Positions 2,419 through 37,632 of a stretch of DNA of 37,632 nt are shown one piece after another. The stretch spans positions 1-37,632 of the forward strand of contig CAMCYR010000002.1 of the NCBI GenBank assembly GCA_945885475.1. The letters are read 5' to 3'. The notes beneath the pieces were generated by a model, which ran no database searches, was not told where the DNA came from, and saw nothing but the letters and a program-made list of their open reading frames with translations. The stretch comes from Chitinophaga pinensis. GTDB taxonomy: Bacteria; Bacteroidota; Bacteroidia; 2-12-FULL-35-15. Made by a program: the position numbers and the translations under genes. Each line of letters opens with the position of its first letter. Position 1 is the stretch's first letter.

Positions 2419-2534
2419 CTTTACAAATATCGCAATGATTGTTTAGAATAGCAAGAAAGATTAAAAGAGTAAAGCGTTTTTATGAACTAAAAATTGCCTG
2501 AAAAGAAAAATTGTTTTAGATCACGGCGTTAAAA

Positions 2535-6067: not shown

Positions 6068-6926
6068 AGTTTTCGGGTATTTTAAATGGGAACGCTTGTT
6101 CTTCGTTTAAAACTACTTTATTGTATGCCAAGTCGATCTTAACATTTTTTTGCGCCTTAATAATATAATTCATTTTCATTGGAAAGAGCTGTGTCGAGTC
6201 CGTTGCTGCGTAATCGCTGTATTGCGCCTCAAAGCTTCTGTCGGGAGCAAATTCATAAAAAAGGATCCGCGCTATTTTAAATGTTTCCGGAATCAAATAG
6301 ATACTTTGTGCCGGCTCTTTCAATTCTTTTCCCTTTTCCATAACCTTTCTTAGTTTCTTTTTTCTGATTGTGCCTAACGTGTATTGGCAATTATCAATTC
6401 CCGGTTTAATTTTTTCGTCTTCATCATAAAACTCAACGCTATTTCCAACCAAAAGGGATTGCAGTAGCTCAAAATCCAGGTCTGTATTCAGCATTTTACT
6501 GATGTAGGCATAGTCTCCGATAAAAAATTTCCCATTATCACTTCCAAGCGGACGCTTAATAAATTTAACTGAATCTTTTGTTATCAATACCCTTGCGCCT
6601 TCTATACCGAGTTTAGATAGGGACATCCAGATGATGCTGTCTTTTTTCATTCGTAGCGTTACAGAAAAGGAAGCAGAAGCGCTGTCTATTTCAGCATCAG
6701 CGCTTAATTTAGCGCTTAGCCTTTCAAACAGGAATTCGTTGGTTTTTAGGTTCGAAGTAAGTGTACGCGCATTTTTAAAATCTAACAAACACTTTCCATT
6801 GTTCAATGTAATCTTTTTATGGGTTTTGCATGAAAACCAAGATGTTGAAGCAAGGATCAAAATCGGCGCAAACAGGAATAGTGGCCTGTTAGAAAAAATG
6901 GAAAAAAGATAAAAAAACCTATTCAT
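6036..6926 (-). CDS. DUF4292 family lipoprotein (LolA/LolB-like fold suspected)
   Basis: The 296-residue protein belongs by its pattern to DUF4292, a Bacteroidota family of outer-membrane-directed lipoproteins. Supporting stretches are K-D-S-I-I-W-M-S-L-S-K-L-G-I-E-G-A-R, G-D-Y-A-Y-I-S-K-M-L-N-T-D-L-D-F and L-Q-S-L-L-V-G-N-S. The N-terminus has a long hydrophobic signal ending in a relaxed lipobox, W-F-S-C. The start is the ATG at 6926, which overlaps the upstream stop codon as ATGAATAG. A longer frame opening at 7121 would place unlike sequence before the signal and is rejected. A lipoprotein-carrier role similar to LolB is inference from the proposed fold and operon context. The gene lies between the TPR lipoprotein and EnvC-like genes and is probably translationally coupled to the first. 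Confidence 0.85.
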   Translation of the reverse strand: MNRFFYLFSIFSNRPLFLFAPILILASTSWFSCKTHKKITLNNGKCLLDFKNARTLTSNLKTNEFLFERLSAKLSADAEIDSASASFSVTLRMKKDSIIWMSLSKLGIEGARVLITKDSVKFIKRPLGSDNGKFFIGDYAYISKMLNTDLDFELLQSLLVGNSVEFYDEDEKIKPGIDNCQYTLGTIRKKKLRKVMEKGKELKEPAQSIYLIPETFKIARILFYEFAPDRSFEAQYSDYAATDSTQLFPMKMNYIIKAQKNVKIDLAYNKVVLNEEQAFPFKIPENYEAITIKEKK

Positions 6927-8685: not shown

Positions 8686-8692
8686 TGAGTTT

Positions 8693-9694
8693 TTATTTAA
8701 TTGTGCTATAGTCTCCTAAGCTGAGATCGCTTGATTTTCCTGTGAACTCCGAAAAATTTCCAACCATTGAATTGCTTAGTTCCGCATTTTTGATTTTACT
8801 ATTTGTTTGAATGATACTGTTTTTTATAACAGAGTTTTCGATGGTAGAATCCCTTCCGATCGATACGTGAGGACCAACAACCGAATCGATAAGTTGAACG
8901 TTTTCACCAATGAAACAAGGTTCAATTATTTTTGAGTTTACATTTTTGTGCGTGCTTGAAACAATTCCGGTATCTTTAATAAACTCTAAAATACGCTGAT
9001 TGGTATAAACAGTAGCATCCTTATTTCCGCAATCAAGCCATTCAGTTACCTTCCCCGGACTGAACTTCGTTCCTTTTGCCTTCATGTTTTCCAACGCATT
9101 TGTGAGTTGGTATTCACCTTTTTCTTTGATATCGTTTTCCAGTAGATATTTTAATTCATTTCTTAAATAATCACCATCTTTAAAATAGTAGATACCAATG
9201 ATAGCAAGGTCTGAAACAAACTCCTGCGGTTTTTCAACAAAATCAGTGATTATATTATTTGCGTCTAGTTTTACAACGCCAAAAGGTTTCGGGTCTTCTA
9301 CTTTTTGCACCCAGATAATTCCTTCCTTTGATGAATCCATTTTAAAATCAGCTTTAAAAAGTGTGTCTGCAAAAGCAATAACAACTTTTCCGGTAACGCA
9401 CGTTTCTGCACACATGATCGCGTGCGCTGTTCCGAGTGGTGTATCCTGATAAAAAATACTGCCTTTGGCGCCCAGGCTTTCTGCTACCTTTACAAGATTG
9501 TCTTCGGCCTCTTTTCCAAAACGACCAACAACAAATGCGATTTCGTCAACTTTTTCGTCACAAACTTTTATAATGTCCTCAACAATGCGTTGAACCATCG
9601 GTTTGCCGGCAATCGGAATAAGCGGCTTCGGCGTTGTAAGTGTGTGTGGGCGCATTCTTTTGCCCATTCCTGCCATTGGGATAATTATCTTCAT
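8693..9694 (-). CDS. Sugar-phosphate nucleotidyltransferase (NDP-sugar synthase family)
   Basis: The 333-residue cytoplasmic enzyme transfers an NMP moiety to a sugar 1-phosphate to make an activated sugar for surface glycans. The nucleotide-binding N-terminus shows G-M-G-K-R-M-R-P (9-16) and P-K-P-L-I-P-I-A-G-K-P-M (22-33). Also visible are the product-site motifs G-T-A-H-A-I (about 107-112), the F-V-E-K-P motif and E-W-L-D-C-G. The last 80 residues have hexapeptide-like I-E/I-x-N-S-V-I patterns of a left-handed beta-helix, as in long RmlA/GlmU-type proteins. The exact sugar (glucose, mannose or other) cannot be told from sequence. It lies 14 bases downstream of dut and 7 bases upstream of the TPR gene. 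The neighbouring flippase supports a polysaccharide or LPS role. Confidence 0.9.
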   Translation of the reverse strand: MKIIIPMAGMGKRMRPHTLTTPKPLIPIAGKPMVQRIVEDIIKVCDEKVDEIAFVVGRFGKEAEDNLVKVAESLGAKGSIFYQDTPLGTAHAIMCAETCVTGKVVIAFADTLFKADFKMDSSKEGIIWVQKVEDPKPFGVVKLDANNIITDFVEKPQEFVSDLAIIGIYYFKDGDYLRNELKYLLENDIKEKGEYQLTNALENMKAKGTKFSPGKVTEWLDCGNKDATVYTNQRILEFIKDTGIVSSTHKNVNSKIIEPCFIGENVQLIDSVVGPHVSIGRDSTIENSVIKNSIIQTNSKIKNAELSNSMVGNFSEFTGKSSDLSLGDYSTIK

Positions 9695-18817: not shown

Positions 18818-21800
18818 ATGACCGTTACAACTAAAAAAAATATTCTTTTCGTTTTTCTATGTCTTTTTTTTTTCAGCGTGTCCGCTCAGGATCGTAAAAT
18901 CAACGATTCCCAAAGTGCAATAAAATTTACTGAAAATAAAAATCAGTGGGATAAGAAGGTATTGTATCGCGCACAGCTTGATGGTGGTGTTTTGTTTCTG
19001 GAGAAAAACGCGTTTACGTATAATTTTTACGATAAGGAAACGCTCCGAAATAATCATACCGGCAGAAACAAAGTAAAGTCCGCTGAACCGATCCGCTCGC
19101 ATGCCTTCAGAATGACTTTTTTGAATGCCCAGAAAACAGTTGACGCAAGCTCCACTCAGATCACGCATGATTACAGCAACTATTTTATTGGGAAAGACAA
19201 AAACAAATGGGTTGGCGATGCTAAAAGCTTCCGTGAAGTAAATTATAAAAACCTATATGCTGGTATCGACCTTCAGGTATTGGGTTTGCAGAATAGCTTG
19301 AAGTATAATTTAATTGTTGCACCACTTGCAAATCCGAAAGAAATTGCCCTTTATTATGAAGGCCTTGATAAAATTAAATTGGAGAGAGGATGCCTTCTTC
19401 TAAAAACTAGCGTAAATGAAATGCTTGAACAAAAACCATATGCCTACCAATACATCGATGGATATGAAGTTGAAGTTCCATGTGAATTTGTTTTAAATAA
19501 TAGTACGGTATCCTTTCGCTTTCCAATGGGTTACGACAAAGAAGTGGAGTTGATCATCGATCCGATTCTCGTTTTCGCTTGTTCATCCGGCTCTACTGCC
19601 GATAATTTCGGCATGACCGCGACATACGATGCGTATGGTAATTTATATTCTGGCGGAACCTGTTTCGATATTGGTTTTCCAACAACACTTGGTGCTTACG
19701 ATGTAACATTTAACGGTGCAACGTCTTATGGCAGAACGGATGTTGTAATTACGAAATACGACTCTTCCGGAACGTTCCTGCAGTACTCAACCTATATTGG
19801 AGGAGCAACAAGTACTGAAATTGTTACCAGCCTTGTTGTTAATAGTTCAGATGAATTGCTTTTGTATGGCGCAACCGGTTCATCCGACTTTCCTGTGACA
19901 CCTGCTGCATACGACACAACATTTAATGGTGGTATTTTACTCCGTTTCGTTTATAACGGGAGCTATTTTGATAATGGCACCGATATATATGTTGCAAAAT
20001 TTAACTCCGCAGGAACAAGCCTTTTGGCATCTACTTTTATTGGTGGTAGTTTGAATGATGGTGTAAATGTCAATAACGACAGTGTTCTTTTTTCAGCTGG
20101 TCCACCTGCTGTTTATGAGTTTCCTGCCGATTCTTTGCAATACAATTACGGTGATCAGTTCCGTGGGGAGATCAATGTTGATCCTTTGGGAAATGCATAT
20201 GTTGCGAGCTCTTCAAGATCGGGTAACTTCCCTATTGTTAATGGTTTTGATAACACCCTTGGTGGTGAACAGGATGCTGTTGCATTTAAATTCAACAGTG
20301 ATTTTTCTGTATTGCTCTGGAGCACATTTTTGGGTGGAACAGATAATGATGCCGGTTATGCTCTCGCGCTTGACGATTCATCAAATGTTTATATTACCGG
20401 AGGTACACGAAGCAACAATTTTCCTGCAACACCGGGTGTCCTTCGTACAACATACCAAGGCGGAAAAGCAGATGGATATATTTCTAAAATAAGCAACAAC
20501 GGCGCAGCGCTTCTTGCCTCAACTTATTGGGGAACAGCAGCATATGATCAGTGTTATTTTATACAACTGGACAGAGATAGCAACGTATATGTGGTTGGTC
20601 AAACAGAGGGCCTAATGCCTATTACACCTGGGGTTTACAACAATCCCAATAGCGGGCAGTTTATCTCCAGAATGAATTATAACTTTACAACACTTGGCTT
20701 TTCAACGGTATTTGGAAACGGTAGCGGTACTCCCAACATTTCTCCATCCGCCTTTTTGGTCGACGATTGTAAAAATATTTATGTTTCAGGATGGGGTGGA
20801 AAAATTGTTCCTCCTGTTACCAGCACAACCGGGATGCCCCTTACGGCAGACGCAATCCAGCCAACAACCGATGGACATAATTTTTATTTGATCGTTCTTT
20901 CCGCAGATGCATCTGCGCTCATCTATGCAACATATTTTGGAGGAGCGAATAGTTGGGAACATGTTGATGGTGGAACAAGTCGATTTGATAAAAAGGGAAT
21001 TATTTACCAATCTGTTTGTGCCGGTTGCGGCGGAAATGATGATTTTCCGGTTACACCAGGATCGTGGCCATATACGAGTCCGATCTACTCTCCTCTCACT
21101 CCAGGTGTTCCTTCTACCGGAATCAATATGAACTCAAATTGCAACAACGGAACATTTAAATTTGACTTTCAGGTTCCTCCTGTAGACGCCGACTTTTCTA
21201 TTGATACAGCTGCAGGATGCGCTCCCTTCTCTGTTGTATTCAGTAATCAAAGTTCAGCCTTCGGGACGTATCTGTGGAATTTTGGTGGCGGTGATACAAC
21301 TTCTGTTATTTATAATCCTACACATGTTTTTCCAACTCCCGGAACTTATATGGTATCCTTGATCCTCTTCAACAATGCGTGTAACATCTCTGATACTGCT
21401 TTTACCTTCATTACCGTTTATCCCGGTGTGACTGCTGATTTCGGATTGGCAAGTGCGCCCTGTTCAAATACAATTACCTTAACAGACTCCTCTTTTGCAT
21501 CGCCTGCAAGCTGGCAATGGGATTTTGGTGACGGTTCCTCTTCTGTGTTACAAAATCCTTTATACACTTATCCTGTAGCGGGAAACTATATAGTTACATT
21601 GATTACAAGTACCATAAACGGATGTTCTGATACCACCGATCTTACTTTTGACAATTCGGGAGGGACTTCAATAAGTTCGAATGTTACAGTTTGTGAAGGT
21701 GGCACAGCTTCTCTTACCGCAACGGGAGGTTTTGCTTATAACTGGGCACCTTCTTCCGGGTTGAATAATTCCACTATCGCCAACCCGACAGCCAGTCCCA

Positions 21801-22426
21801 CTTCTACGACCACTTATTCTGTATCTATATCAACTGTCAACCCAATGGGTGATACCTGCTTCGTTACACTTTCAACTACCGTTACTGTAATTGATCCTGC
21901 TTTGTTTCCAATCGCTGCGACAGCTGACAATGACAGTGTTTTTTCAGGAAGCTCTACTGTTATTCACGCAATTACAGACACAACATTAACTATCTTATGG
22001 AGTCCGGCAACAGGTCTTAGTAATCCCAATTCCTTTAATCCGACTGCATCGCCAACAACAACAACAACATACACGTTGACGGTGATCGATTCTTCCGGCT
22101 GTCCGAAAACTGCAACCGTAACAATATACGTTTTATCAATGCAGTGTGATCCGGCTGATGTTTTTGTACCCAATACATTTACGCCAAACAGTGATGGTCA
22201 AAACGATGTTTTATATGTCAGAGGAAACATGATCTCGGAATTATATTTTGCAGTATATAACCGCTGGGGAGAAATGGTGTTTGAAACAACAGATCAAAAT
22301 GTTGGATGGGATGGAATTTATAAAGGGATGAAAGCTGATCCTGCTGTATTTGCTTGGTACTTAAGGGCAAAGTGTTATAATGGTAGTGAGCTGAAAAAAC
22401 AAGGTAATACAACCCTGATACGATAA
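18818..22426 (+). CDS. Type IX secreted surface protein: DUF7948, SBBP propeller, PKD, Ig-like, type B sorting domain
   Basis: The 1202-residue protein has a signal peptide (1-24, ending V-S-A-Q) and a DUF7948-like N-terminal domain with T-E-N-K-N-Q-W. Beta-propeller SBBP repeats (about 250-780) have recurring Y-S-T-Y-I-G-G / G-S-S-D-F-P-V-T motifs. Two PKD domains follow (about 788-865 and 873-945, with W-x-F-G-G/D-G and P-x-H-V/Y-x-x-P-G-T/N-Y), then two Ig-like modules with W-A-P/W-S-P and T-T-T-Y cores (about 945-1110). The C-terminal 90 residues have F-T-P-N-S-D-G-Q-N-D, Y-N-R-W-G and W-D-G, the gliding motility-associated type B domain. It should be exported through the outer membrane by type IX secretion and act as an adhesin or surface-layer protein. 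PorP/SprF and OmpA-type genes follow immediately. Confidence 0.93.
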   Translation: MTVTTKKNILFVFLCLFFFSVSAQDRKINDSQSAIKFTENKNQWDKKVLYRAQLDGGVLFLEKNAFTYNFYDKETLRNNHTGRNKVKSAEPIRSHAFRMTFLNAQKTVDASSTQITHDYSNYFIGKDKNKWVGDAKSFREVNYKNLYAGIDLQVLGLQNSLKYNLIVAPLANPKEIALYYEGLDKIKLERGCLLLKTSVNEMLEQKPYAYQYIDGYEVEVPCEFVLNNSTVSFRFPMGYDKEVELIIDPILVFACSSGSTADNFGMTATYDAYGNLYSGGTCFDIGFPTTLGAYDVTFNGATSYGRTDVVITKYDSSGTFLQYSTYIGGATSTEIVTSLVVNSSDELLLYGATGSSDFPVTPAAYDTTFNGGILLRFVYNGSYFDNGTDIYVAKFNSAGTSLLASTFIGGSLNDGVNVNNDSVLFSAGPPAVYEFPADSLQYNYGDQFRGEINVDPLGNAYVASSSRSGNFPIVNGFDNTLGGEQDAVAFKFNSDFSVLLWSTFLGGTDNDAGYALALDDSSNVYITGGTRSNNFPATPGVLRTTYQGGKADGYISKISNNGAALLASTYWGTAAYDQCYFIQLDRDSNVYVVGQTEGLMPITPGVYNNPNSGQFISRMNYNFTTLGFSTVFGNGSGTPNISPSAFLVDDCKNIYVSGWGGKIVPPVTSTTGMPLTADAIQPTTDGHNFYLIVLSADASALIYATYFGGANSWEHVDGGTSRFDKKGIIYQSVCAGCGGNDDFPVTPGSWPYTSPIYSPLTPGVPSTGINMNSNCNNGTFKFDFQVPPVDADFSIDTAAGCAPFSVVFSNQSSAFGTYLWNFGGGDTTSVIYNPTHVFPTPGTYMVSLILFNNACNISDTAFTFITVYPGVTADFGLASAPCSNTITLTDSSFASPASWQWDFGDGSSSVLQNPLYTYPVAGNYIVTLITSTINGCSDTTDLTFDNSGGTSISSNVTVCEGGTASLTATGGFAYNWAPSSGLNNSTIANPTASPTSTTTYSVSISTVNPMGDTCFVTLSTTVTVIDPALFPIAATADNDSVFSGSSTVIHAITDTTLTILWSPATGLSNPNSFNPTASPTTTTTYTLTVIDSSGCPKTATVTIYVLSMQCDPADVFVPNTFTPNSDGQNDVLYVRGNMISELYFAVYNRWGEMVFETTDQNVGWDGIYKGMKADPAVFAWYLRAKCYNGSELKKQGNTTLIR

Positions 22427-22433
22427 TTGAAGG

Positions 22434-23450
22434 ATGAAAAAAAATAAGTTCATATTGTTTTTACTATTCTGTTGTGTGAATTTTATTCATGCACAGGATA
22501 TTCATTATTCGCAATTCAACGCATCACCACAAAACTTAAATCCTGCTCAGACAGGTTTGTTTAAAGGTGACTGGCGCTTTGTTGGAAACTTCAGAAGTCA
22601 GTGGTCTGCAATTCCTGTTCCCTATCGGACATTTTCTATTGCAACAGATACCCGCTTAAAAACAAAATTGGAAAAAGATGTTCCAGCAGCTGGCATACTT
22701 ATCAATACGGATAAATCGGGAGATTCTAAGTTTACAACAACACAAATATTTCTTTCCGGTGCTTACATTAAAAAATTAAACAAAGACTCAACTCATTTTT
22801 TATCTGTTGGGATTCAACCAGGAGTGACAACAAAAAGTTTTGATGTTTCGGCTCTTTCGTTCGACAATCAGTACGATGGCGACAGTTACGATGCTTCCAT
22901 CAGCAGCGGTGAAAACTTTTCGAAAACACGTATTACCTATTTTGATATTGGTGGCGGACTAGCATATTTATGGAAGAAAAACAGCCGTACACTAGTAAAC
23001 GTTGGCGTTTCCGCACTTCATTTGAACAGACCGAAACAATCGTTCTTCAATAATGATGAAATTCGTTTAGATGTAAAAACTAGTGCTAGTGCTATTGCGG
23101 AATTTCCTGTTGCAGCTCAGTTGGATATTTTACCAACAATTCTTTACCAGCGACAAGGAAAGTTTCAGGAAACGGTTGTCGGTTTATTTGGTAAGTATCA
23201 TTTGAAACCAATTGATGGAATGACAACGGCTGTTTCTCTTGGCGGGTTTTACCGGATGAAAGACGCCTTTATTCTGGTGGCGAACATGGACTATAAAAAT
23301 TTCAATGTCGGATTTAGTTACGATATCAATACTTCAAAGCTTACTGAAGCGACAAACCACAGAGGTGGATTTGAAATTTCTGTGATTTATATCTTCAAAA
23401 AGGTTACTCCTTTTGTTGCTAAAAAACGAGTTTGTCCTATTTATATGTAG
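22434..23450 (+). CDS. PorP/SprF family type IX secretion outer-membrane protein
   Basis: The 338-residue protein has a signal peptide (1-20) and then the family's opening motif D-I-H-Y-S-Q-F-N-A-S-P-Q-N-L-N-P-A-Q-T-G. Later come F-R-S-Q-W-S-A-I and a series of amphipathic beta-strands consistent with an outer-membrane barrel of about 14 strands. SprF-type proteins are needed for secretion or attachment of the type B cargo encoded next to them, as sprF is for SprB in Flavobacterium johnsoniae. The gene starts 7 bases after the cargo stop and is followed 2 bases later by the OmpA-type gene. That makes it the partner of the preceding cargo. Several paralogues are usual per genome, so I give no gene symbol. 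Confidence 0.93.
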   Translation: MKKNKFILFLLFCCVNFIHAQDIHYSQFNASPQNLNPAQTGLFKGDWRFVGNFRSQWSAIPVPYRTFSIATDTRLKTKLEKDVPAAGILINTDKSGDSKFTTTQIFLSGAYIKKLNKDSTHFLSVGIQPGVTTKSFDVSALSFDNQYDGDSYDASISSGENFSKTRITYFDIGGGLAYLWKKNSRTLVNVGVSALHLNRPKQSFFNNDEIRLDVKTSASAIAEFPVAAQLDILPTILYQRQGKFQETVVGLFGKYHLKPIDGMTTAVSLGGFYRMKDAFILVANMDYKNFNVGFSYDINTSKLTEATNHRGGFEISVIYIFKKVTPFVAKKRVCPIYM

Positions 23451-23452
23451 TT

Positions 23453-25453
23453 ATGATTTTTGAGAAGCAATCTAAATTAATTCGTTTGCGGATGCTGAGA
23501 ACAGCTTTTGTTTTTGGTGTCTCCCTCTTCTTTTCGTTTTCGCTGTTCGGACAAAAAACAAAAGCACTTCTTGCAGATGGCGATAAAGCCTTTGCTGAAA
23601 ACGATTTTTTTTCTGCAGCAGCCTATTATAACAGAGCAATTTTACAAGACTCCAGCGACATTGTTGTTCAATATAAATATGCCGATGCAAGTCGCCTGAA
23701 CTTTGATTATGCAATAGCAGAACACTGGTATGCAAAGGTGTTAAAAAAAGATGCTCAGGGAAAACTCTACCCAGAATGCTCTTTTTGGTTGGCAATGATC
23801 AAAAAAAATCAGGGAAACTACAAGGATGCCAAAAAGATGTTTGACAAGTATGCGAAGAAAAATAAAAAGAAAAAAGACAGTTACTTCGTTAAAAAAGCAA
23901 ATCAGGAAGTGTTGGCCTGCGATTATGCGCAACTGCTTATGGCTAGTCCCGATAAAAGCGTTTCGATCTTTCATTTAGATAGTTCAGTAAACAGTAAAGT
24001 TTCAGAATACGCACCAATTCAGGTTGATAGCCTTCTTTATTTTTCTTCCTTACGCGATGGAAAAGACAGAGATAGAAAAAACAGTGTCAATTTTAATAAA
24101 ATATATACAGCCATTCAAGATTCAGTAAAATGGCAAAAAGCAGTTGAGCTGGATACACTGTTTAATCGTAAAGGAATTCACAGCGCAAATACGGCCTTCA
24201 ATGCAGACTATACAAAAGTATTTATTACCAGATGTGTTCCTAAAAATGCGATGGAGTTTAATTGCGATATATATTCTTCAGAATATAAAAATGGACATTG
24301 GGGGCCGCTTCAAAAACTTCCATCGGAAATTAATGCGAAAGGGTTTACCAATACGCAGCCTTCAATAGGATTTCTGGAAGAAGAAGAGGTGTTGTTTTTT
24401 GCCTCCAACCGGAGCGGCGGTGAGGGGAAAATGGATATTTGGTATAGTAAAATCGGCAAGAACGGAAACTATGGAAAACCAATAAATGCAGGCAAGCAAG
24501 TCAATTCGATTGATGATGAAATTACACCGTTTTATTGCAAGCCTTGTCAGGAATTGTTTTTTAGTTCCAATTGGCATAAGGGTTTTGGGGGCTTTGATAT
24601 TTTTAAAAGTGAATATAAAAATAGTGCGTTGGGTGTCCCCAAAAATTTAGGATTGCCTTTTAACAGTAATTTTAATGATATTTATTTTTCTATCAATTCA
24701 AGAAGAACGGAAGCGTTTCTCTCTTCAAATAGAATTGGTTCTTACTTCGAAGAAAAAGAAAGTTGCTGTAACGATATTTATATGGTGAAACTACCAAAGG
24801 TCGATGAGCCACCAAAAAAAGTTGATAGCACTCAGGTTTTTGTAACACAAATGAAGCTTCTTGTTCCGCTTACGTTGTATTTTCACAACGATGAGCCCGA
24901 TAAAAAAACAGTAGCGGTAACAACACTCAAAAACTACAAAAAAACCTATGAAGATTATTCCGTATTGCGCGAATTGTATAAAAAGGAATATTCAAAAGGA
25001 GCTAAAGACGCCGATCTCGATAGGGCGATTGGGGACATTGACAACCTGTTCGAAGACTCCGTGGAAGCGGGAATGCAGGATCTCGAAAAGTTTGCTCAAC
25101 TTTTGATTAAGGTTTTGAATGACAAAGAAAAGGTTACCATCACCATGAAAGGATTTTGTAGTCCGCTGGCGTCAACGGACTATAATGTGAATCTCGCAAA
25201 ACGAAGAATATCAAGCCTGAGAAATTATTTCACAGAATATCAAAATGGTATATTGGTAAAATACATTAATACTAAAAATCCGGATGAGGGAAGCATTACT
25301 TTTCTGGATGAAGATATCGGTGAACTAAAAGCGCGCCCGAATGTCAGTGATGATTATTATGACACCAAAAACTCGATCTACAACCCTGTAGCGGCTCTTG
25401 AGCGAAAAATTCAGATTATAGCCATTTCCACTTTCTCATCCAACAAGGAATAA
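23453..25453 (+). CDS. TPR-PD40-OmpA protein of the type IX module (PorE-like)
   Basis: The 666-residue protein has a signal peptide (core at 17-32, ending L-F-G-Q), TPRs (about 38-150) and a PD40/WD40-like propeller (about 170-440). The propeller repeats include L-L-Y-F-S-S-L-R-D-G, V-L-F-F-A-S-N-R-S-G-G and E-L-F-F-S-S-N. The C-terminal OmpA-like domain (about 465-660) has the peptidoglycan-binding segment S-T-D-Y-N-V-N-L-A-K-R-R-I. An insert of about 60 residues follows the first OmpA strand (L-T-L-Y-F-H-N-D-E-P-D). This layout resembles PorE, which links type IX components to peptidoglycan, but without its extra regulatory domain. The ATG at 23453 is chosen; an ATG at 23492 (MLRTAF) is also credible. 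It completes the cargo, PorP, OmpA trio. Confidence 0.88.
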   Translation: MIFEKQSKLIRLRMLRTAFVFGVSLFFSFSLFGQKTKALLADGDKAFAENDFFSAAAYYNRAILQDSSDIVVQYKYADASRLNFDYAIAEHWYAKVLKKDAQGKLYPECSFWLAMIKKNQGNYKDAKKMFDKYAKKNKKKKDSYFVKKANQEVLACDYAQLLMASPDKSVSIFHLDSSVNSKVSEYAPIQVDSLLYFSSLRDGKDRDRKNSVNFNKIYTAIQDSVKWQKAVELDTLFNRKGIHSANTAFNADYTKVFITRCVPKNAMEFNCDIYSSEYKNGHWGPLQKLPSEINAKGFTNTQPSIGFLEEEEVLFFASNRSGGEGKMDIWYSKIGKNGNYGKPINAGKQVNSIDDEITPFYCKPCQELFFSSNWHKGFGGFDIFKSEYKNSALGVPKNLGLPFNSNFNDIYFSINSRRTEAFLSSNRIGSYFEEKESCCNDIYMVKLPKVDEPPKKVDSTQVFVTQMKLLVPLTLYFHNDEPDKKTVAVTTLKNYKKTYEDYSVLRELYKKEYSKGAKDADLDRAIGDIDNLFEDSVEAGMQDLEKFAQLLIKVLNDKEKVTITMKGFCSPLASTDYNVNLAKRRISSLRNYFTEYQNGILVKYINTKNPDEGSITFLDEDIGELKARPNVSDDYYDTKNSIYNPVAALERKIQIIAISTFSSNKE

Positions 25454-27158: not shown

Positions 27159-29519
27159 ATGACGCTCGCTAAGAAATCAAAAGTAGAATTGATTGCTGAA
27201 CTCAAAAAGCTTCAGCGAAAAATTCGTTCCTATGAAAAAAGTCAAACAGCAGAAAACACAAACCCATATTCGCTCTTGAGCAATGTAAAGTGGCAGTCTT
27301 TTTTTAGAAAGTCCCAAAACATTACTGTTGTTGTTGATCGAAAAGGAATTATCCTCGATATGAATTCCGAAACAAAACAGGTCAAAAAGAAAGACCTAAT
27401 AGGGAAAAGTGCTTTTTCGATTGTTTCTGGCGCAGACTTGAAAAGAATGAAGTTGGCGATTGAAAAAGTATTTAAAACAAAAAAAGCACAAGAGCGCAAC
27501 ATCAGCCGACCGGATAATAATCTTGGAGCAAGACATTATAAAATGAAAGCAACTGCAGCTATAAAGGACAAAAAGGTTGTAGCTGTTGTTTTAGACTTTA
27601 CCGAAACAACAAAAGAGGTTAAATCGGCCCTTCTTTTAAAAGGAAGCGAGGTTGAATTAGAACTGAAACGGAGTCTAGAAAACTATAAAAGTCTTGTTGA
27701 CTGTTCTCCCGATGGTGTTATTGTTCAAGTAAATGGGGTTATAAAGTTTGCAAACCCAAGTGGCTTGAAAATACTGGGGGTTAATAATTTTGAAGCACTC
27801 CAAAACATTTCCGCACTTGATTTCATCCTTCCCGAATACCACAAAAAAAAAATCGAAAGAATTTCAAAAGCAAAAGCTGGTGAAGAGCTTGATTTTGTTG
27901 AAATAAAAATTAAAAATAAGAAGGGTGAAATTTATATTCTGGAAACGAAACCCACCGCTATTAAATTTAATGGAATAGATGCAATTCAGGTTGTTCTCCG
28001 CGATACATCTGAAAAAAAGTTGCTGCAGAAAGAACAAGCCCGTGCAAAAATTGCTGAGGAAACAAACGAATTACTCGAACAAGAAATTACAAAACGGAAG
28101 ATTATTCAATTGAAATTACAAGAGTCGCAAAAGTATACTCGACTTATCATTAATGGTTCGCTTGACATGATCTGTGCTTCTGATAGACAAGGGTTTATCA
28201 CGGAATTTAATCAGGCTGCTCAACAAACATTTGGATATTCACAAGAGGAGGTAATCGGAAAGAGTGTTAGCATATTATACGTGGACCCAAAAGAACGAAA
28301 AAAAATAACTGAGGAGGAGCTCTATAAAAAAGGAGCTTACGCAGGTGAGGTTACAAACAGAAGAAAGAACGGTGAAAAATTTATCGCGTTTTTGTCTGCT
28401 TCGGTTCTTAAAAATGATGACGGAGAAGTTCTTGGTGCAATGGGTGTTTCTAGAGATATCTCTGAATTGAAGCAAGCAGAGGGGAAATTAAGAGCGCAAT
28501 CTGCAAAATTTAATGCGATCATTGAAACAAGTTCCCACCTTATTTGGACGGTCGATAAAAATATTTGTTTGACGACCTTTAATCAAAACCTAAATAAAGA
28601 ACTAAAAACCCGTTATGGTCGGGAGGCAAAAATTGGTTTATCTATGATTCGGCAAACAGCTGAATTACCAAAGGAGTATAATTTGTTTTTGTTAAAGAAA
28701 TATGAAAAGGCATTTGCTGGTGAAGCTCAATATTTCGACATCTATTTTATTGATAAAAACGGATTAGAAAACTGGCGAGAAATTTATCTTAATCCTATTT
28801 GGGCTGAAGGTGGATCTGTTTTAGAGGTTTCTGGTATCAGCCATGATATAACGGAGAAAAAAATATCTGAGGCAAGGATTCGCTTATCACTTCAGGAAAA
28901 AGAGGTCTTGTTAAAAGAGGTCCACCATCGTGTAAAAAATAATCTTCAGGTAATTTCAAGTATATTAAATCTTCAATCGTCCTATGTAAAAGATGAAGGA
29001 ACATTACAGATTTTAAAAGAAAGCCAGAATCGTATTAAATCGATGGCGTTTATTCATGAAAGTTTATATCAGACCAAAGACTTTTCAAATATTAATTTTA
29101 CTGAATATGTGCTAAATCTATCACAAAACTTAATGCACTCGTATTCAAATTTCGACCACGAAATAAAATTAAATCTTGATATTCAAAATGTTTTTCTTAA
29201 TTTAGACCTAGCGATTCCTTGCGGCTTAATCATCAACGAAATTATGTCCAACGCTTTAAAATACGCATTTGTCGATAACAGTCTTGGTGGTGAGATTGCG
29301 ATTGTTATGAAGGTCTCTGGCGAGAATTTGATATTAAATATCGGTGACAACGGAAAGGGGCTGCCCCCAGAAATAGATTACAGAAATACTGAGTCGCTCG
29401 GATTGCAATTAGTTGTAACTTTGACGGATCAATTGAGTGGGACAATAGCCCTGGATTTAAAAAAGGGAACAAACTACTCCATTATATTTAAACGAAAACA
29501 AGAAAAAATCCGTATATAA
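27159..29519 (+). CDS. Cytoplasmic multi-PAS histidine kinase (HisKA_2 type)
   Basis: The 786-residue kinase has no transmembrane segment. After a short coiled N-terminus come four PAS-like domains (about 45-150, 172-290, 325-440 and 445-570), with PAC-like ends such as G-V-S-R-D-I-S-E and G-I-S-H-D-I-T-E-K. The HisKA_2 dimerisation domain contains E-V-H-H-R-V-K-N-N-L-Q, with His590 the likely phosphoacceptor. The HATPase domain has N-E-I-M-S-N-A-L-K-Y-A-F (Asn693), G-D-N-G-K-G-L-P and S-L-G-L-Q-L-V. PAS domains suggest sensing of a small molecule, redox state or energy, but no cofactor residue is clear. It lies one base upstream of the LytTR response regulator gene, its presumed partner. Confidence 0.92.
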   Translation: MTLAKKSKVELIAELKKLQRKIRSYEKSQTAENTNPYSLLSNVKWQSFFRKSQNITVVVDRKGIILDMNSETKQVKKKDLIGKSAFSIVSGADLKRMKLAIEKVFKTKKAQERNISRPDNNLGARHYKMKATAAIKDKKVVAVVLDFTETTKEVKSALLLKGSEVELELKRSLENYKSLVDCSPDGVIVQVNGVIKFANPSGLKILGVNNFEALQNISALDFILPEYHKKKIERISKAKAGEELDFVEIKIKNKKGEIYILETKPTAIKFNGIDAIQVVLRDTSEKKLLQKEQARAKIAEETNELLEQEITKRKIIQLKLQESQKYTRLIINGSLDMICASDRQGFITEFNQAAQQTFGYSQEEVIGKSVSILYVDPKERKKITEEELYKKGAYAGEVTNRRKNGEKFIAFLSASVLKNDDGEVLGAMGVSRDISELKQAEGKLRAQSAKFNAIIETSSHLIWTVDKNICLTTFNQNLNKELKTRYGREAKIGLSMIRQTAELPKEYNLFLLKKYEKAFAGEAQYFDIYFIDKNGLENWREIYLNPIWAEGGSVLEVSGISHDITEKKISEARIRLSLQEKEVLLKEVHHRVKNNLQVISSILNLQSSYVKDEGTLQILKESQNRIKSMAFIHESLYQTKDFSNINFTEYVLNLSQNLMHSYSNFDHEIKLNLDIQNVFLNLDLAIPCGLIINEIMSNALKYAFVDNSLGGEIAIVMKVSGENLILNIGDNGKGLPPEIDYRNTESLGLQLVVTLTDQLSGTIALDLKKGTNYSIIFKRKQEKIRI

Positions 29520-29520
29520 A

Positions 29521-30273
29521 ATGTCAAAAACAAACATTCTAATTGTTGAAGATGAAAGTATCGTAGCGAAAGATATTCAACATAGCTTAAAAAAGCTTGG
29601 ATACACCGTTGTTGGAATGTGTTCTACAGGTGAAGATGCCATTAAAATTGCCGAAGAAGTGAAACCGGATCTTGTTTTGATGGATATCATGCTGAAAGGC
29701 GAAATGAGCGGAATTGAGGCTGCCGGTCAGATTCGTGAAAAATTTAATATCCCCATCATTTATCTTACCGCTTACGCTGACGAAAGCACACTCAGCAAAG
29801 CAAAGGTTTCAGAACCTTACGGGTATATTATTAAACCCTTCAAAGAAATTGATTTGCACACGTCTATCGAAATGGCGATCTATAAACATGAGAAGGAAAC
29901 AGATGTGAAAAAGGAAAGAGATTTTTTATATTCGATCGTTGAAAATAAAGAATCAAAAGACATCATTTTTGTTAAGTCAAATTCACGCTTGGTAAAAGTA
30001 AAAACCAGTGATATTTATTTTGTAGAAGCATTGAAGGATTATGTTGTTATCAATACAAATGCCGCTCGCTATACAATTCACAGCACAATGAAGGACATCG
30101 AGAAAAAATTGCCTGCAAGTGATTTTATTCGTGTTCACCGCTCTTTTATAGTACGCATCGATAAAATTGTTGCGATAGAGCAGCCGAATTTGATTCTCGA
30201 AGAAGATAAAAAATTAATTCCTATCGGTGGTTCTTATAAGGATGATCTGGCGAAGAGATTGAATATGATCTAA
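29521..30273 (+). CDS. LytTR-family response regulator
   Basis: The 250-residue protein has a receiver domain (about 4-120) with the acidic pocket V-E-D-E, phosphoacceptor Asp in L-V-L-M-D-I-M-L (near 55), Thr in Y-L-T-A-Y-A and Lys in I-I-K-P-F. A LytTR DNA-binding domain follows (about 148-248), with V-K-T-S-D-I-Y-F-V-E-A-L-K-D-Y and F-I-R-V-H-R-S-F-I-V. Phosphorylated by the preceding kinase, it would bind direct-repeat sites and switch genes on or off. The insertion M-L-K-G-E-M-S-G-I-E after the phosphorylation site is common in receivers paired with HisKA_2 kinases. The operon ends at the strong hairpin at 30334. Target genes are not evident in the window. Confidence 0.95.
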   Translation: MSKTNILIVEDESIVAKDIQHSLKKLGYTVVGMCSTGEDAIKIAEEVKPDLVLMDIMLKGEMSGIEAAGQIREKFNIPIIYLTAYADESTLSKAKVSEPYGYIIKPFKEIDLHTSIEMAIYKHEKETDVKKERDFLYSIVENKESKDIIFVKSNSRLVKVKTSDIYFVEALKDYVVINTNAARYTIHSTMKDIEKKLPASDFIRVHRSFIVRIDKIVAIEQPNLILEEDKKLIPIGGSYKDDLAKRLNMI

Positions 30274-32866: not shown

Positions 32867-32893
32867 ATGCAACCAAATAATGCAACTTTGCAT
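32867..32893. promoter_or_regulatory. Repeated ATGCAA half-sites and palindrome upstream of the sigma factor
   Basis: ATGCAAC occurs at 32867 and again at 32880, 13 bases apart. The second copy forms a perfect inverted repeat with TTGCAT (ATGCAA-CT-TTGCAT, 32880-32893). A near-consensus -7 box (CAACTTTG, 32883-32890) overlaps it, 24 bases before the sigma factor ATG. This could be an operator or an autoregulatory site for the sigma gene. Confidence 0.35.
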
Positions 32894-32913
32894 CTTTACA
32901 ATAGAAATCAAAT

Positions 32914-33444
32914 ATGACTGATGAGCAAATAGTAAAAGGGTGCATTGAAAAGAATGCAATTGCTCAAAAAAATCTGTACGAAAAATTTGTACGAAAAATG
33001 ATGGGTGTTTGTCTGCGTTATTGCGACTGTTCAGAGGAGGCAGAAGATGTTGTACAAAATGGATTCATCAGCATTTTTGAAAATATTGAATCGTTTAAAG
33101 GAACCGGTTCTTTAGAAGGGTGGATAAGAAAAATAATGGTTAATACCGCGCTTACCCATATCCGTAAAAATAAAAAATTAAAACAAAATATTGAGTTGGA
33201 TAGCGTTGAGTTTATGCTCCCTTCTAATATGGATTCTGGGGATAGTTTCGCTGTTAAGGATCTTTTGAAGATCATACAAACCTTGCCTTTGGGATTTAAA
33301 ACGGTTTTTAACCTTTATGCCATTGAGGGTTATTCACATAGAGAAATAGCTGAGATGCTGAATATTTCAGAGAGTACATCTAAATCACAATATTCAAGGG
33401 CGAAAGTGCATTTACAGAAGTTGATACCGATTGATCGGGAATAA
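32914..33444 (+). CDS. ECF-type RNA polymerase sigma factor
   Basis: The 176-residue protein directs RNA polymerase to a specific regulon. Region 2 (about 12-85) has the Y-E-K-F-V/M-G-V-C-L-R-Y core, A-E-D-V-V-Q-N-G-F-I-S-I-F and G-S-L-E-G-W-I-R-K-I-M-V-N. Region 4 (about 118-170) has L-P-L-G-F-K-T-V-F-N-L-Y-A-I-E-G-Y-S-H-R-E-I-A-E-M-L and the recognition helix S-E-S-T-S-K-S-Q-Y-S-R-A. This is the Bacteroidota ECF type. The next gene starts 2 bases after the stop and has an anti-sigma-like N-terminus, so the two form a regulatory pair. A repeated ATGCAA motif sits upstream. In Porphyromonas gingivalis an ECF sigma (SigP) controls type IX genes; whether this one does is inference. Confidence 0.95.
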   Translation: MTDEQIVKGCIEKNAIAQKNLYEKFVRKMMGVCLRYCDCSEEAEDVVQNGFISIFENIESFKGTGSLEGWIRKIMVNTALTHIRKNKKLKQNIELDSVEFMLPSNMDSGDSFAVKDLLKIIQTLPLGFKTVFNLYAIEGYSHREIAEMLNISESTSKSQYSRAKVHLQKLIPIDRE

Positions 33445-33446
33445 AA

Positions 33447-34409
33447 ATGAAGAAAAAAAACATAGAAGATTTATTTAAAGACTCTTTTGAAAATTTCGAA
33501 GCGGAAGTTAGCCCTTCTGTTTGGAAAAATGTTCAAGCGGCATTGAAAGGTGCAGGTTTGGGTCTGTTAGGCAAAATGCTCATTAATAAGATGGGTGCAA
33601 ATGCAATTGTAGGCATTGTTTCCTCTGCAGCAGCAGTTGTTGCTACTGTTTTTGTAATGAACGGAACAGAAAACAAAACAAATACGCCCAAAGCTGTAGT
33701 AGCGCCAAAAGTGGTTGTCGAAACGAAGAAACCAAGTGTCGCTGAAATAAAAGAGTTTTTGTCTGTAGAAAAAGAAGAAACGAAAGAAGATCCTGCGGTA
33801 GTAAAAGCGGTTGAGCCGGTTTTACCAGCTAAAAAGAAGATTGTTAACAAAGATAAAAAACAAATTCAGTCTTTGCTCTCTGACGAACGTATCGCATCTA
33901 TTTCCGCCAGTTGTGTTGCCGGTGCTGTACCCTTGATCATCAACCTTTCCAATATTGGGAGCGGAAAAATTAATAAATGGTCATTCAATGATGGATCAAA
34001 GCCAATGTTAGGTGTAAATCCAATTAAATATTTTGATGAGCCGGGTATCTATACTATTACACTTTCATCAACTGGTGTCGATGGCAAAATTGCTGTCGAT
34101 AGCATAAAAGTCGAAGCATTTAATAATTCTTCAATTGCCGTATCCAACCAAAGAGAGTTCTCTCCCAATGGTGATGGACTGAATGATCTTTTTTTCTTTA
34201 ATGGAGAAAACATTTTAGTCATGGAAGTAACCATCTTTGATAAAGACGCAAAAGTGATCTATGAATTTAAAGGCAATGGCTTTAAATGGGATGGCAAAAA
34301 TAAGAAAGGTGAAAATGTAAGAGAGGGAAATTATTTATATATCATTTCTGCCGATGGTGCTGATGGAAAGAAATACGAACAAAAAGGAAAGATTAAACTA
34401 ACGAGATAA
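33447..34409 (+). CDS. Putative membrane anti-sigma factor with PKD-like and type IX sorting-type C-terminal domains
   Basis: The 320-residue protein begins with a short cytoplasmic segment (1-45; N-I-E-D-L-F-K-D-S-F and V-S-P-S-V-W-K-N-V), a pattern common in Bacteroidota proteins encoded directly after ECF sigma factors and presumed to bind them. One transmembrane helix (about 51-71) follows. Then come a Lys/Glu/Pro/Val-rich linker (72-148), a degenerate PKD domain (about 150-222; K-W-S-F-N-D-G, F-D-E-P-G-I-Y-T-I-T-L) and a C-terminal domain (236-320) with F-S-P-N-G-D-G-L-N-D, F-D-K-D-A-K-V, W-D-G-K and G-N-Y-L-Y, ending K-L-T-R. That last domain is the gliding motility-associated type B module usually found on type IX cargo. 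No signal peptidase site is seen, so the helix probably anchors it with the C-terminal domains in the periplasm. Confidence 0.85.
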   Translation: MKKKNIEDLFKDSFENFEAEVSPSVWKNVQAALKGAGLGLLGKMLINKMGANAIVGIVSSAAAVVATVFVMNGTENKTNTPKAVVAPKVVVETKKPSVAEIKEFLSVEKEETKEDPAVVKAVEPVLPAKKKIVNKDKKQIQSLLSDERIASISASCVAGAVPLIINLSNIGSGKINKWSFNDGSKPMLGVNPIKYFDEPGIYTITLSSTGVDGKIAVDSIKVEAFNNSSIAVSNQREFSPNGDGLNDLFFFNGENILVMEVTIFDKDAKVIYEFKGNGFKWDGKNKKGENVREGNYLYIISADGADGKKYEQKGKIKLTR

Positions 34410-34719: not shown

Positions 34720-37632
34720 ATGAAAAAAATTAAATTTATTTCTTTTGGATTATTTTTAAATATATGCTCCATCCAATCTCAAACAATTGATGCCTCTCCT
34801 GAAACACAAACAATTTGTTCAGGAGGAACAGCAACACTTACGGCGGTGATTTCTCCTGGTGGCGGTGGCGGAAGCGCTGCAACCACAAGTTACGCCATAA
34901 GCTCGGTGCCTTATGCTCCAGATCCTTTTGGGGCGGGGACTGTCGTTGGTGGCATGGGAGATGACACACAATCAGGAGCTCTTCCTATTGGATTTAATTT
35001 TTGTTTTTTTGGAACAACATATTCTAATTTTTATGTTGGGTCAAATGGCTGGGTGGCCTTTTCTCCTCAACCAACAACGTATACATCAGCAACAATTCCA
35101 TCTTTGGCAGGAACGGTACCTAAAAATTGTATCATGGGGCCCTGGCAAGATTGGTATCCTGGATTATCAGCAGGTTGTGTAAAATATCAAATGTATGGAA
35201 TAGCACCTTTTAGAAGATTGGTGGTATCCTGGAATAATTGCCCCATGTTTTCTTGTACTTCCACCTTAGGAACCTTTCAAATTACTATATACGAAACAAC
35301 AAATAGGATTGAAAATTATATCCAAGTTAAGCCAGCCTGCCTTTCATGGGCCGGCGGAACAGCAGTGCAAGGGCTTCACAATGCTGCAGGTACAGTAGCG
35401 TTTTCTGTTCCAGGAAGAAACAGTACAGCCTGGACTGCAGTAAACGAAGGTTGGAGATACACTCCAAACGGAACATCATCTTATCAAATCAATTGGTATA
35501 TTTTACCAGCAAATGTATTAATCGGAACGGGTTCACCAATAGTAGTTACACCACCTACTTCACCACAATATTATTATGCTGAGGTGGTAGACTTAAATGC
35601 ATGTCCTGTTGGTGCAGTAACCAATAAAGATACTGTGGAAGTTATTACAACCACTGTTAGTGTTGACGCAGGAGCATACACACAAATTTGTCCGGGACAA
35701 TCAACGTCACTAAACGCAACATCTGGATCAGCAATTAATTATACTTGGAGCCCTGCTGGAAGTTTAAGTAACCCAGCAATCTCCAATCCAATTGCAACAC
35801 CAGGAGCGAGTACAACATATACCGTTTCGGTAACAGACGCTTTGGGATGCGCGGGAACGGATACGGTTTCGGTTGTTTTCGCAAGTCTTATTGCTAATGC
35901 AGGAAGCGGAGTTTCCATTTGTTTGGGTTCGTCCACAGCTTTAAATGCAACAGGTGGAGCAAGTTATTCTTGGAGTCCTGCAACAGGATTAAGTAGTGCA
36001 GCAATAGCAAACCCAATAGCAAGCCCAACAGGAACTACAACCTATACCGTTACAGCAACACAAGGAACTTGTACATCTACTGCAGCGGTAACGGTAACAG
36101 TAAATCCTTTGCCACCAACTGATGCAGGACCTCCAGCTGCATTGTGTTTAGGTAACACAATAATACTAAGCGGCACAGGAGCAACAGGATATGTTTGGTC
36201 GCCAGCGGCAACACTAAGCAGCTCTACCGTTTCAAATCCAACATCCAGTGCAGCTTCAACAACAACCTATACCTTGGTTGGAACAGATGGGAATGGTTGT
36301 GTCTCTTCAGATAGCGTAACGTTAACAGTAAACCCATTGCCAATAATAGATGCAGGGCTTGGCGTAACAATTTGTCCCGGCTCAAGTACAACATTAAATG
36401 CAACAGGAGGAACTAGTTATGTGTGGTCCCCAGCAACATCATTAAGCAGTTCAACTATTGCAAACCCTGTTGCTACTCCATCTTCAACAACGGTATACAT
36501 AGTAACTGGAACAGACGCAAATAGTTGTTCATCTGTTGATCTTGTCGCGGTTAATGTTTCGCCAATCGTTGTTACTGCAAGCAGTGCTAGTTCTACCATA
36601 TGTGTCGGAAACAATTCAACTATTTCTGCAGTAGGCGGAGCAACGTATGTTTGGTCACCTGCCGCTTCACTGAGCAGTTCAACTATTGCAAATCCCGTTG
36701 CAACACCAACAGCAACTACAACTTATACTGTTATAGGAACGGGTGGATTAGGGTGTATTGATTCAGCTTTTGTAACAGTTACAGTAAATCCTTTGCCAGC
36801 TGTAGATGCAGGATCACCAATAGCTTTTTGTATTGGTGGAACAACGGTGTTAAACGGAAGTGGTGCTTCAACTTATGTTTGGTCTCCTGGTGCTACCCTC
36901 AGTAGCACAAGTATTTCGAATCCAATCTCGAGCCCAACAACAACGACTACCTATACCGTTATTGGGACAGATGGAAACGGTTGTTCGGCAAGCGATAGTA
37001 TAACGGTTGGTGTAAACCCTTTGCCAACGATTGATGCGGGAGCAAGTATAAGCATTTGCCCGGGAGCAAGTACTAGTTTAAACGCAACAGGAGGAACATC
37101 TTATTTGTGGACACCATCCGGATCACTGGATAACCCAGTTATTTCAAATCCAATAGCTTCTCCAACTTCATTAACAACATATACAGTTGTTGGAACAGAT
37201 GCAAATGGTTGTTCTTCATCTGATGTTGTTTCGATTAGTTTAAGTGGTATTGTTGTTACTGCAAGCACTTCCATTGCAACTATTTGTGCTGGATCATCTG
37301 CTTCACTTAGTGCTTTAGGCGCAGCAAGTTATTCTTGGTCTCCTTCAGGAACATTAAGTAGTTCTTCTATTGCCAATCCAATAGCCTCACCTGCCTCTAC
37401 AACAACTTACACTGTTGTAGGAGCTGCATCCTCTGGTTGCCTTGATACTGCATTTGTCACAGTAAATGTAAATTCTTTACCCCTAATTACGGTTGGCCCT
37501 TCTGCTTCAATTTGTGTTGGATCAACATCTTCTTTGAGTGCTTCTGGTGCTGTTGGATATGCTTGGTCTCCTGCTGGTTCTTTATCTGGTGCAACAACAG
37601 CAAGCCCTGTTTCATCTGCCGCTGGAACAACA
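34720..37632 (+). CDS. Giant secreted adhesin with tandem Ig-like repeats, C-terminus outside the window
   Basis: An uninterrupted frame of 971 codons runs from the ATG at 34720 to the right edge. A signal peptide (about 1-23; M-K-K-I-K-F-I-S-F-G-L-F-L, ending I-Q-S-Q) comes first. Next is an Ig-like half (T-I-C-S-G-G-T-A-T-L-T-A), a Cys- and Trp-rich domain (about 50-250; P-I-G-F-N-F-C-F-F-G, S-N-G-W-V-A-F-S) and the second Ig-like half. From residue 315 there are nine Ig-like repeats, each with I-C-x-G, L-N-A-T-G-G, W-S-P, I-A-N-P, T-T-T-Y-T-V and a Gly-Cys near the end. Such proteins in Bacteroidota usually end in a type IX sorting domain, here unseen. A role in adhesion or gliding is inferred. 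It follows the sigma/anti-sigma pair, after a terminator. Confidence 0.9.
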   Translation, partial: MKKIKFISFGLFLNICSIQSQTIDASPETQTICSGGTATLTAVISPGGGGGSAATTSYAISSVPYAPDPFGAGTVVGGMGDDTQSGALPIGFNFCFFGTTYSNFYVGSNGWVAFSPQPTTYTSATIPSLAGTVPKNCIMGPWQDWYPGLSAGCVKYQMYGIAPFRRLVVSWNNCPMFSCTSTLGTFQITIYETTNRIENYIQVKPACLSWAGGTAVQGLHNAAGTVAFSVPGRNSTAWTAVNEGWRYTPNGTSSYQINWYILPANVLIGTGSPIVVTPPTSPQYYYAEVVDLNACPVGAVTNKDTVEVITTTVSVDAGAYTQICPGQSTSLNATSGSAINYTWSPAGSLSNPAISNPIATPGASTTYTVSVTDALGCAGTDTVSVVFASLIANAGSGVSICLGSSTALNATGGASYSWSPATGLSSAAIANPIASPTGTTTYTVTATQGTCTSTAAVTVTVNPLPPTDAGPPAALCLGNTIILSGTGATGYVWSPAATLSSSTVSNPTSSAASTTTYTLVGTDGNGCVSSDSVTLTVNPLPIIDAGLGVTICPGSSTTLNATGGTSYVWSPATSLSSSTIANPVATPSSTTVYIVTGTDANSCSSVDLVAVNVSPIVVTASSASSTICVGNNSTISAVGGATYVWSPAASLSSSTIANPVATPTATTTYTVIGTGGLGCIDSAFVTVTVNPLPAVDAGSPIAFCIGGTTVLNGSGASTYVWSPGATLSSTSISNPISSPTTTTTYTVIGTDGNGCSASDSITVGVNPLPTIDAGASISICPGASTSLNATGGTSYLWTPSGSLDNPVISNPIASPTSLTTYTVVGTDANGCSSSDVVSISLSGIVVTASTSIATICAGSSASLSALGAASYSWSPSGTLSSSSIANPIASPASTTTYTVVGAASSGCLDTAFVTVNVNSLPLITVGPSASICVGSTSSLSASGAVGYAWSPAGSLSGATTASPVSSAAGTT
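35662..37632 (+). repeat. Nine tandem 225-228-base Ig-like repeats
   Basis: The Trp codon of each W-S-P (W-T-P in the seventh) core lies at 35746, 35971, 36196, 36424, 36652, 36880, 37108, 37336 and 37564. The spacing is 225, 225 and then 228 bases six times. The ninth copy is cut by the window edge. Similar single modules occur in the type IX cargo gene at 18818 (near residues 945-1110). Confidence 0.95.
36112..37479 (+). repeat. 684-base super-repeat: three Ig-like modules duplicated as a unit
   Basis: Modules 3-4-5 (36112-36795) and 6-7-8 (36796-37479) correspond one to one. Modules 3 and 6 share G-T-D-G-N-G-C and end in N-P-L-P. Modules 4 and 7 share I-C-P-G, L-N-A-T-G-G-T-S-Y and end in I-V-V-T-A-S. 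Modules 5 and 8 share T-I-C-x-G, G-C-I/L-D-(S/T)-A-F-V-T-V. A third unit begins at 37480. Confidence 0.85.

Follow-up and report, generated by a model that had tools for sequence, protein, structure and literature searches.

An ECF sigma factor paired with an anti-sigma factor that carries a type IX secretion type B sorting domain: a widespread candidate for trans-envelope control of cargo genes

The stretch of DNA analysed here (the window, 37,632 nucleotides) encodes an ECF sigma factor followed by a membrane anti-sigma factor ending in the type B C-terminal sorting domain (CTD) of the type IX secretion system (T9SS). By its predicted features the pair is an ECF sigma/membrane anti-sigma system, in which the anti-sigma factor presumably binds the sigma factor. 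On balance, the two proteins probably form an autoregulated system dedicated to type IX secretion, in which a trans-envelope anti-sigma factor governs cargo genes from a docking site on the type B machinery. The basis of this trans-envelope reading is in silico and comprises protein architecture, conservation, gene order, promoter, predicted regulon and an altered CTD motif; the link to the T9SS is supported by the enrichment of CTDs among the promoter targets, by downstream cargo or porP/sprF genes and by the distinct CTD. For the matching of cargo output to export capacity in T9SS bacteria, the known route, PorA-PorXY-SigP, is indirect. The sigma/CTD anti-sigma pair is a widespread and testable candidate contained in one operon; its promoter and a regulon of cargo genes are predicted, and its CTD has a changed signature. 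A search of open-licence papers for an anti-sigma factor with a T9SS CTD found no description of one.

The original prediction described an ECF sigma gene followed 2 bases later by an anti-sigma gene whose product has a membrane helix, a linker, a PKD domain and a type B CTD, and this is confirmed by coordinates, profile matches and AlphaFold2. The coordinates of both genes are exact (Table 1), with a 2-base gap between the sigma stop codon and the anti-sigma start. The sigma factor has regions 2 and 4 only, with gathering scores exceeded for both Sigma70_r2 (PF04542, 61.7 bits, E 5.8e-17) and Sigma70_r4_2 (PF08281, 52.9 bits, E 2.8e-14); TIGR02937 matches with 92.9 bits, and at 176 residues the protein lies below the ECF limit of about 200. 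Its partner shows the features of a membrane anti-sigma factor: tandem arrangement with a sigma gene, one transmembrane helix and a short cytoplasmic N-terminus. An AlphaFold2 model of the sigma factor and the anti-sigma segment as one in-frame reading (stop codon taken as a residue, 8 sequences) is of low confidence, with a pLDDT of 49.

Table 1. Features of the sigma/anti-sigma locus (window coordinates)
Feature	Position	Strand	Basis and remarks
ECF-type promoter TGCAACC-N16-CATCT of the sigma gene, probable autoregulation site	32868..32895	+	Motif in 33 genus genomes
ECF sigma factor gene	32914..33444	+	176 aa; Sigma70_r2 and Sigma70_r4_2 above cut-off; orthologues in genus 64-90% identical
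Anti-sigma factor gene with type B sorting domain	33447..34409	+	320 aa; ATG at 33447
Anti-sigma residues 1-45, cytoplasmic, putative sigma-binding segment	33447..33581	+	Two model helices, invariant residues, pN/pS
Anti-sigma residues 51-68, transmembrane helix	33597..33650	+	AlphaFold2; hydropathy in 87/87 members
Anti-sigma residues 69-147, flexible K/E/P-rich linker	33651..33887	+	Mostly pLDDT < 50, weak constraint, composition
Anti-sigma residues 148-232, PKD domain	33888..34142	+	PKD_4 match; PKD folds among Foldseek matches
Anti-sigma residues 233-320, type B CTD without the [ND]RWG tryptophan	34143..34406	+	PF13585 and TIGR04131 above cut-off; motif comparison
Co-oriented secreted protein gene with signal peptide	34720..37632	+	Runs past the window, ends at contig position 38919; type B CTD with NRWG

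The AlphaFold2 model of the anti-sigma factor consists of two N-terminal helices (residues 6-15 and 23-35), a hydrophobic membrane helix (51-68), a low-confidence linker reaching to about residue 135 and strands in two beta domains, PKD and CTD (152-318), mostly with pLDDT of about 90. The PKD_4 match is close to its cut-off (27.6 bits against 27), and the C-terminus scores 52.5 bits with CHU_C (PF13585; cut-off 27) and 40.4 bits with TIGR04131 (cut-off 35). A Foldseek search with this model returned generic Ig/PKD matches and PorU, and nothing specific. Six N-terminal residues (F10, K11, F14, E18, W26 and N28) are invariant across the genus. In ten codon-compared pairs, residues 1-45 have a pN/pS of 0.02-0.15 and the helix one of 0-0.18, against 0.29-0.88 in the linker and 0.05-0.52 across PKD and CTD, which places the cytoplasmic segment and the helix under strong purifying selection and leaves the linker loose. 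Given this constraint the cytoplasmic start is really translated, and the internal Met codons from which the helix could become a signal peptide, M44 and M49, are unconserved in the genus; together these results argue against a signal peptide and uphold the predicted cytoplasmic N-terminus. The Sec signal peptide of type B substrates is accordingly not what is found here, the helix beginning at residue 51 behind a constrained cytoplasmic segment. Between helix and CTD, family members have 130-283 residues. The close relatives G003 and G035 (L019 1501-2463 (+) and L020 823-1782 (-)) have nearly identical anti-sigma N-termini and divergent PKD and CTD (pN 0.04 for the N-terminus against 0.31-0.34 for PKD/CTD), as if the outer half had been swapped.

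The homologue search suggested with the original prediction bears out a conserved pairing of the sigma factor with a CTD-ended partner, in 34 of 36 genomes of the genus and in 16 other families. Within the genus, where residues 1-92 served as the query, gene order is kept, the spacing to the sigma gene ranges from -4 to +15 bases and the copies retain helix, PKD and CTD; of the remaining two genomes, G007 carries its sigma gene at the edge of a contig and the other is 64% complete. More widely, a profile of the N-terminal 82 residues matches 98 of 395 genomes of the class, and an ECF sigma gene lies directly upstream in all 74 loci read outside the genus. The partner ends in a CTD in 53 of these loci and lacks one in 21. 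Tests of seven CTD-less partners all gave matches to outer-membrane barrel families, in three cases under the curated cut-off. The 16 families with CTD-type anti-sigma factors, besides the host family, are counted from the family labels of profile matches, and a sigma-profile scan of named genomes finds CTD-ended partners in Crocinitomix catalasitica, Fluviicola chungangensis, Acidiluteibacter ferrifornacis and many MAGs. Mapped on a tree of the sigma factors, the CTD-ended kind groups strongly: it takes 14 changes of label, where shuffled labels average 54. At least two changes on well-supported branches are required, so that the outer end of the anti-sigma factor has probably been swapped more than once. 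Presence of SprA was considered as a test of T9SS dependence and rejected, since SprA occurs in 385 of the 395 genomes of the class and co-occurrence is uninformative. In locus L084, the CTD pair is soon followed by another ECF sigma gene and its partner of 545 residues (6640-8824 (+)); the end of this partner looks like an outer-membrane barrel, with no Pfam match, which would place both designs side by side in one genome.

Upstream of the sigma gene, all 33 genus genomes compared carry TGCAACC-N16-[CT][AG]TCT, in which TGCAACC is invariant and the second box (YRTCT) conserved, and in the genomes measured the motif ends 16-20 bases before the start codon. It occurs at 345 sites in 36 genomes, against 36 sites for the same boxes with a 12-base spacer (sums of the counts listed). 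A first estimate of the regulon from two genomes was weak, CTD genes being common (at least 150 type A matches in G034), and the sample was therefore enlarged to 81 distinct sites in eight genomes, with neighbour genes in the same regions as control. Of the 81 sites, 58 have an open reading frame starting no more than 250 bases downstream. Among the 49 complete target genes of at least 100 amino acids, 16 match the type A CTD model and 14 type B, compared with 14 and 7 among 120 neighbouring genes; the totals, about 30 of 49 and at most 21 of 120, each add up two counts and possibly include a few overlaps. Fisher tests of targets against neighbours give 5e-8 for any CTD, 1e-4 for type B and 0.002 for type A, with targets in different species non-independent; orthologous targets recur across several species. 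A paralogous sigma factor has a similar promoter of its own, GGCAACC-N16-CGTC, so some targets may belong elsewhere, and the motif sites are assigned to the sigma factor at 32914-33444 only provisionally, by motif likeness. By kind of sigma gene, the TGCAACC-type motif is present at 37 of 74 of the CTD kind, 6 of 40 of the barrel kind and 10 of 23 of the short kind.

The surroundings of the pair also point to the T9SS. A large co-oriented gene of the type B cargo kind lies downstream in 7 of the 13 other genus loci read, and in other families a co-oriented downstream gene with a type B CTD is present in 11 of 20 loci, mostly as the very next gene; type B genes are about 1% of all genes (34 to 41 matches per genome). 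In the Bacteroidales branch, the order sigma gene, CTD anti-sigma gene, PorP/SprF gene is found in 9 of the 9 loci that reach far enough, the identity of PorP/SprF being confirmed by TIGR03519 (E about 1e-64) in the two tested. No PorP/SprF gene adjoins the anti-sigma gene in the window, where the nearest begins at 22434, or in the genus. Type B CTD proteins bind PorP-like or PorP/SprF proteins at the surface (PMC9143113), and in F. johnsoniae the shuttle gene commonly follows the type B substrate gene (PMC12618676). Elsewhere in the window (18818-25453 (+)), a cargo gene with a type B CTD (18818-22426) precedes a gene resembling PorP/SprF in sequence (22434-23450) and a PorE-like gene with an OmpA-like end (23432-25453); this is likely a static type B unit, and its gene order is the one reported for F. 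johnsoniae.

The CTD of the anti-sigma factor is a sub-type of its own. The [ND]RWG motif is missing from all 87 anti-sigma CTDs compared, which come from 17 families, and also from those of the Bacteroidales branch, whose CTD falls under the TIGR04131 cut-off in the two loci tested. By contrast, type B CTDs of cargo carry it; the genome under study has 33 other TIGR04131 matches in other proteins, and RW is found in 29 of its 33 cargo CTDs. Anti-sigma CTDs largely retain the TPNGDG-like loop, WxG, the strand that follows and the C-terminal strand. Anti-sigma CTDs are 42-86% alike among themselves and 23-42% like cargo CTDs, adjacent or not. The idea that the CTD was copied from, or co-evolves with, the adjacent cargo was dropped, the anti-sigma CTD being no nearer to the adjacent cargo CTD than to others. 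The SprB CTD has five motifs (A-E), each required for secretion, with B, D and E on strands and A and C in loops (PMC12618676). From motif order and strand or loop assignment, [ND]RWG would correspond to motif B; if so, the anti-sigma CTD may be recognised and yet not exported normally, which would fit a tethered bait. In locus L087 (6594-7001 (-)), a 135-residue secreted-looking protein directly follows the anti-sigma factor and has a CTD 61% identical to that of the latter; it is perhaps a free copy of the bait.

These features suggest how the system could operate. The sigma factor would be held by the 45-residue cytoplasmic segment of the anti-sigma factor, which would span the inner membrane once and reach toward the outer membrane through its flexible linker and PKD domain. 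There the type B CTD, as a tethered mimic of cargo, would dock on a PorP/SprF-type shuttle or on the translocon. A change in docking, for example through competition by cargo or through an idle or blocked machine, might free the sigma factor, which would then drive transcription of its own gene along with a group of T9SS cargo genes. The original prediction regarded the CTD as bait and the protein as a sensor of type IX secretion. The T9SS link in this proposal stands, through gene order and the predicted regulon, and the separate CTD sub-type, which lacks the tryptophan of cargo, is a specific hint in favour of the bait idea; physical contact and a transmitted signal are presumed. The parallel with SigP and PorXY of P. 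gingivalis, mentioned in the original prediction, gained no support from the analysis. In its full form, as a sensor of secretion status in which a tethered, export-deficient tag competes with cargo for the type B shuttle or translocon and relays occupancy across the inner membrane to a sigma factor that sets cargo expression, the proposal is tentative, with the odds somewhat against it. If true, it would constitute a feedback loop between T9SS load and cargo supply.

The main rival to the bait reading is that of a surface tether, in which the exported CTD is fastened to a PorP/SprF protein of the outer membrane, so that the anti-sigma factor permanently spans both membranes as Dma1 does. It would then sense the outer membrane or the surface (adhesion, ligand binding by the PKD domain, envelope spacing), with the T9SS as the route and not the signal. 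Barrel-ended, Dma-like relatives with the same N-terminus and gene order fit such a tether, as do the ample helix-to-CTD distance for crossing the periplasm and the surface binding of type B CTDs by PorP/SprF (PMC9143113). The PorP/SprF gene adjoining the CTD form in Bacteroidales fits bait and tether alike. However, the tryptophan lost from all 87 CTDs probably belongs to a motif on which secretion depends, provided that the motif has been matched correctly (PMC12618676), and its loss favours the bait; the many T9SS cargo genes in the predicted regulon likewise indicate the secretion system itself. The surface tether is thus rather unlikely, though a serious competitor.

Two further explanations dispense with T9SS contact or with regulation. 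The PKD and CTD-like domains could be periplasmic Ig-like sensors only, their likeness to cargo reflecting descent without function. The CTD sub-type unlike that of cargo, and the part of the family under the TIGR04131 cut-off, are in keeping with this, but cargo or PorP/SprF genes are adjacent in many families, the predicted regulon consists of T9SS cargo and the other CTD motifs are strongly constrained, making the explanation improbable. If the protein were an ordinary T9SS cargo that loses its helix as a signal peptide and adjoins the sigma gene by mere neighbourhood, its PKD and CTD tail, common in cargo, would be accounted for, and a start at M44 or M49 would resemble a signal peptide. 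This candidate was rejected on the constrained residues 1-45 and the unconserved internal Met codons, and the tandem with an ECF sigma gene in every locus read, across 17 families, leaves it hardly credible.

Among known systems, the Dma factors share with the trans-envelope anti-sigma factor proposed here a neighbouring ECF sigma gene, a cytoplasmic N-terminal segment, a membrane helix, a long periplasmic linker and an outer end directed toward the outer membrane (PMC12045153, PMC13088901). A further mark of the Dma family is a sigma partner of group ECF21. The profile of residues 1-82 also finds barrel-ended proteins beside ECF sigma genes (E < 0.001), the likeness to Dma1 being one of description. 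The anti-sigma factor differs in ending with PKD and a T9SS type B CTD and in having no C-terminal outer-membrane beta-barrel, and so falls outside the Dma definition; its predicted regulon is T9SS cargo, whereas that of Dma factors comprises vesiculation or glycan genes. For Dma2, a permanent double-membrane tether with surface sensing is proposed (PMC13088901). The best reading by analogy is that the anti-sigma factor would function as Dma factors do, but with the outer-membrane barrel supplied by another protein and not fused. The trans-envelope design, first described in Bacteroides (Dma), is thereby suggested to be one of several in Bacteroidota, with an outer end that is either a barrel of its own or a secretion tag, which may rely on the barrel of another protein (PorP/SprF).

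With T9SS type B substrates the anti-sigma factor shares the C-terminal type B CTD, in substrates often behind PKD, and in the Bacteroidales branch the PorP/SprF gene directly next to it (TIGR04131; PMC12618676, PMC9143113). It differs in its inner-membrane anchor in place of a cleaved signal peptide, the missing [ND]RWG tryptophan and the partner sigma gene. The nearest functional precedent for CTD-linked sigma control, likened by description, is PorA-PorXY-SigP of Porphyromonas gingivalis, where a CTD-bearing protein feeds an ECF sigma factor that controls type IX genes and SigP is autoregulated (PMC7712824). By contrast, PorA has a signal peptide, a surface location and a two-component route to component genes (PMC7712824), whereas the anti-sigma factor would join CTD and sigma-binding end in one protein, with cargo genes as predicted targets.

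Related arrangements occur nearby and in relatives. A second system, conserved in the genus and with its own promoter GGCAACC-N16-CGTC, comprises genes for an ECF sigma factor and PorP/SprF (PF11751 E 3e-63) and, between them, one for a membrane anti-sigma-like protein of 239 residues that has no CTD (G000:C20:33893-36250, L077 1894-4251, and L078-L082). Just 3' of its PorP/SprF gene, at about 2388-2477 (-) in L081 and similarly in L078, L079 and L080, a frame of about 35 codons resembles only cytoplasmic residues 1-34 of the anti-sigma factor and has no membrane helix; it may be a stand-alone sigma-binding peptide or a gene remnant. In one other family (L441-L445), sigma 1, CTD anti-sigma, sigma 2 and a short anti-sigma-like gene are contiguous in 5 of 5 loci. 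Finally, a PAS histidine kinase and LytTR response regulator pair (window 27159-30273 (+)) adjoins a divergent RNase R gene in several genomes of the genus.
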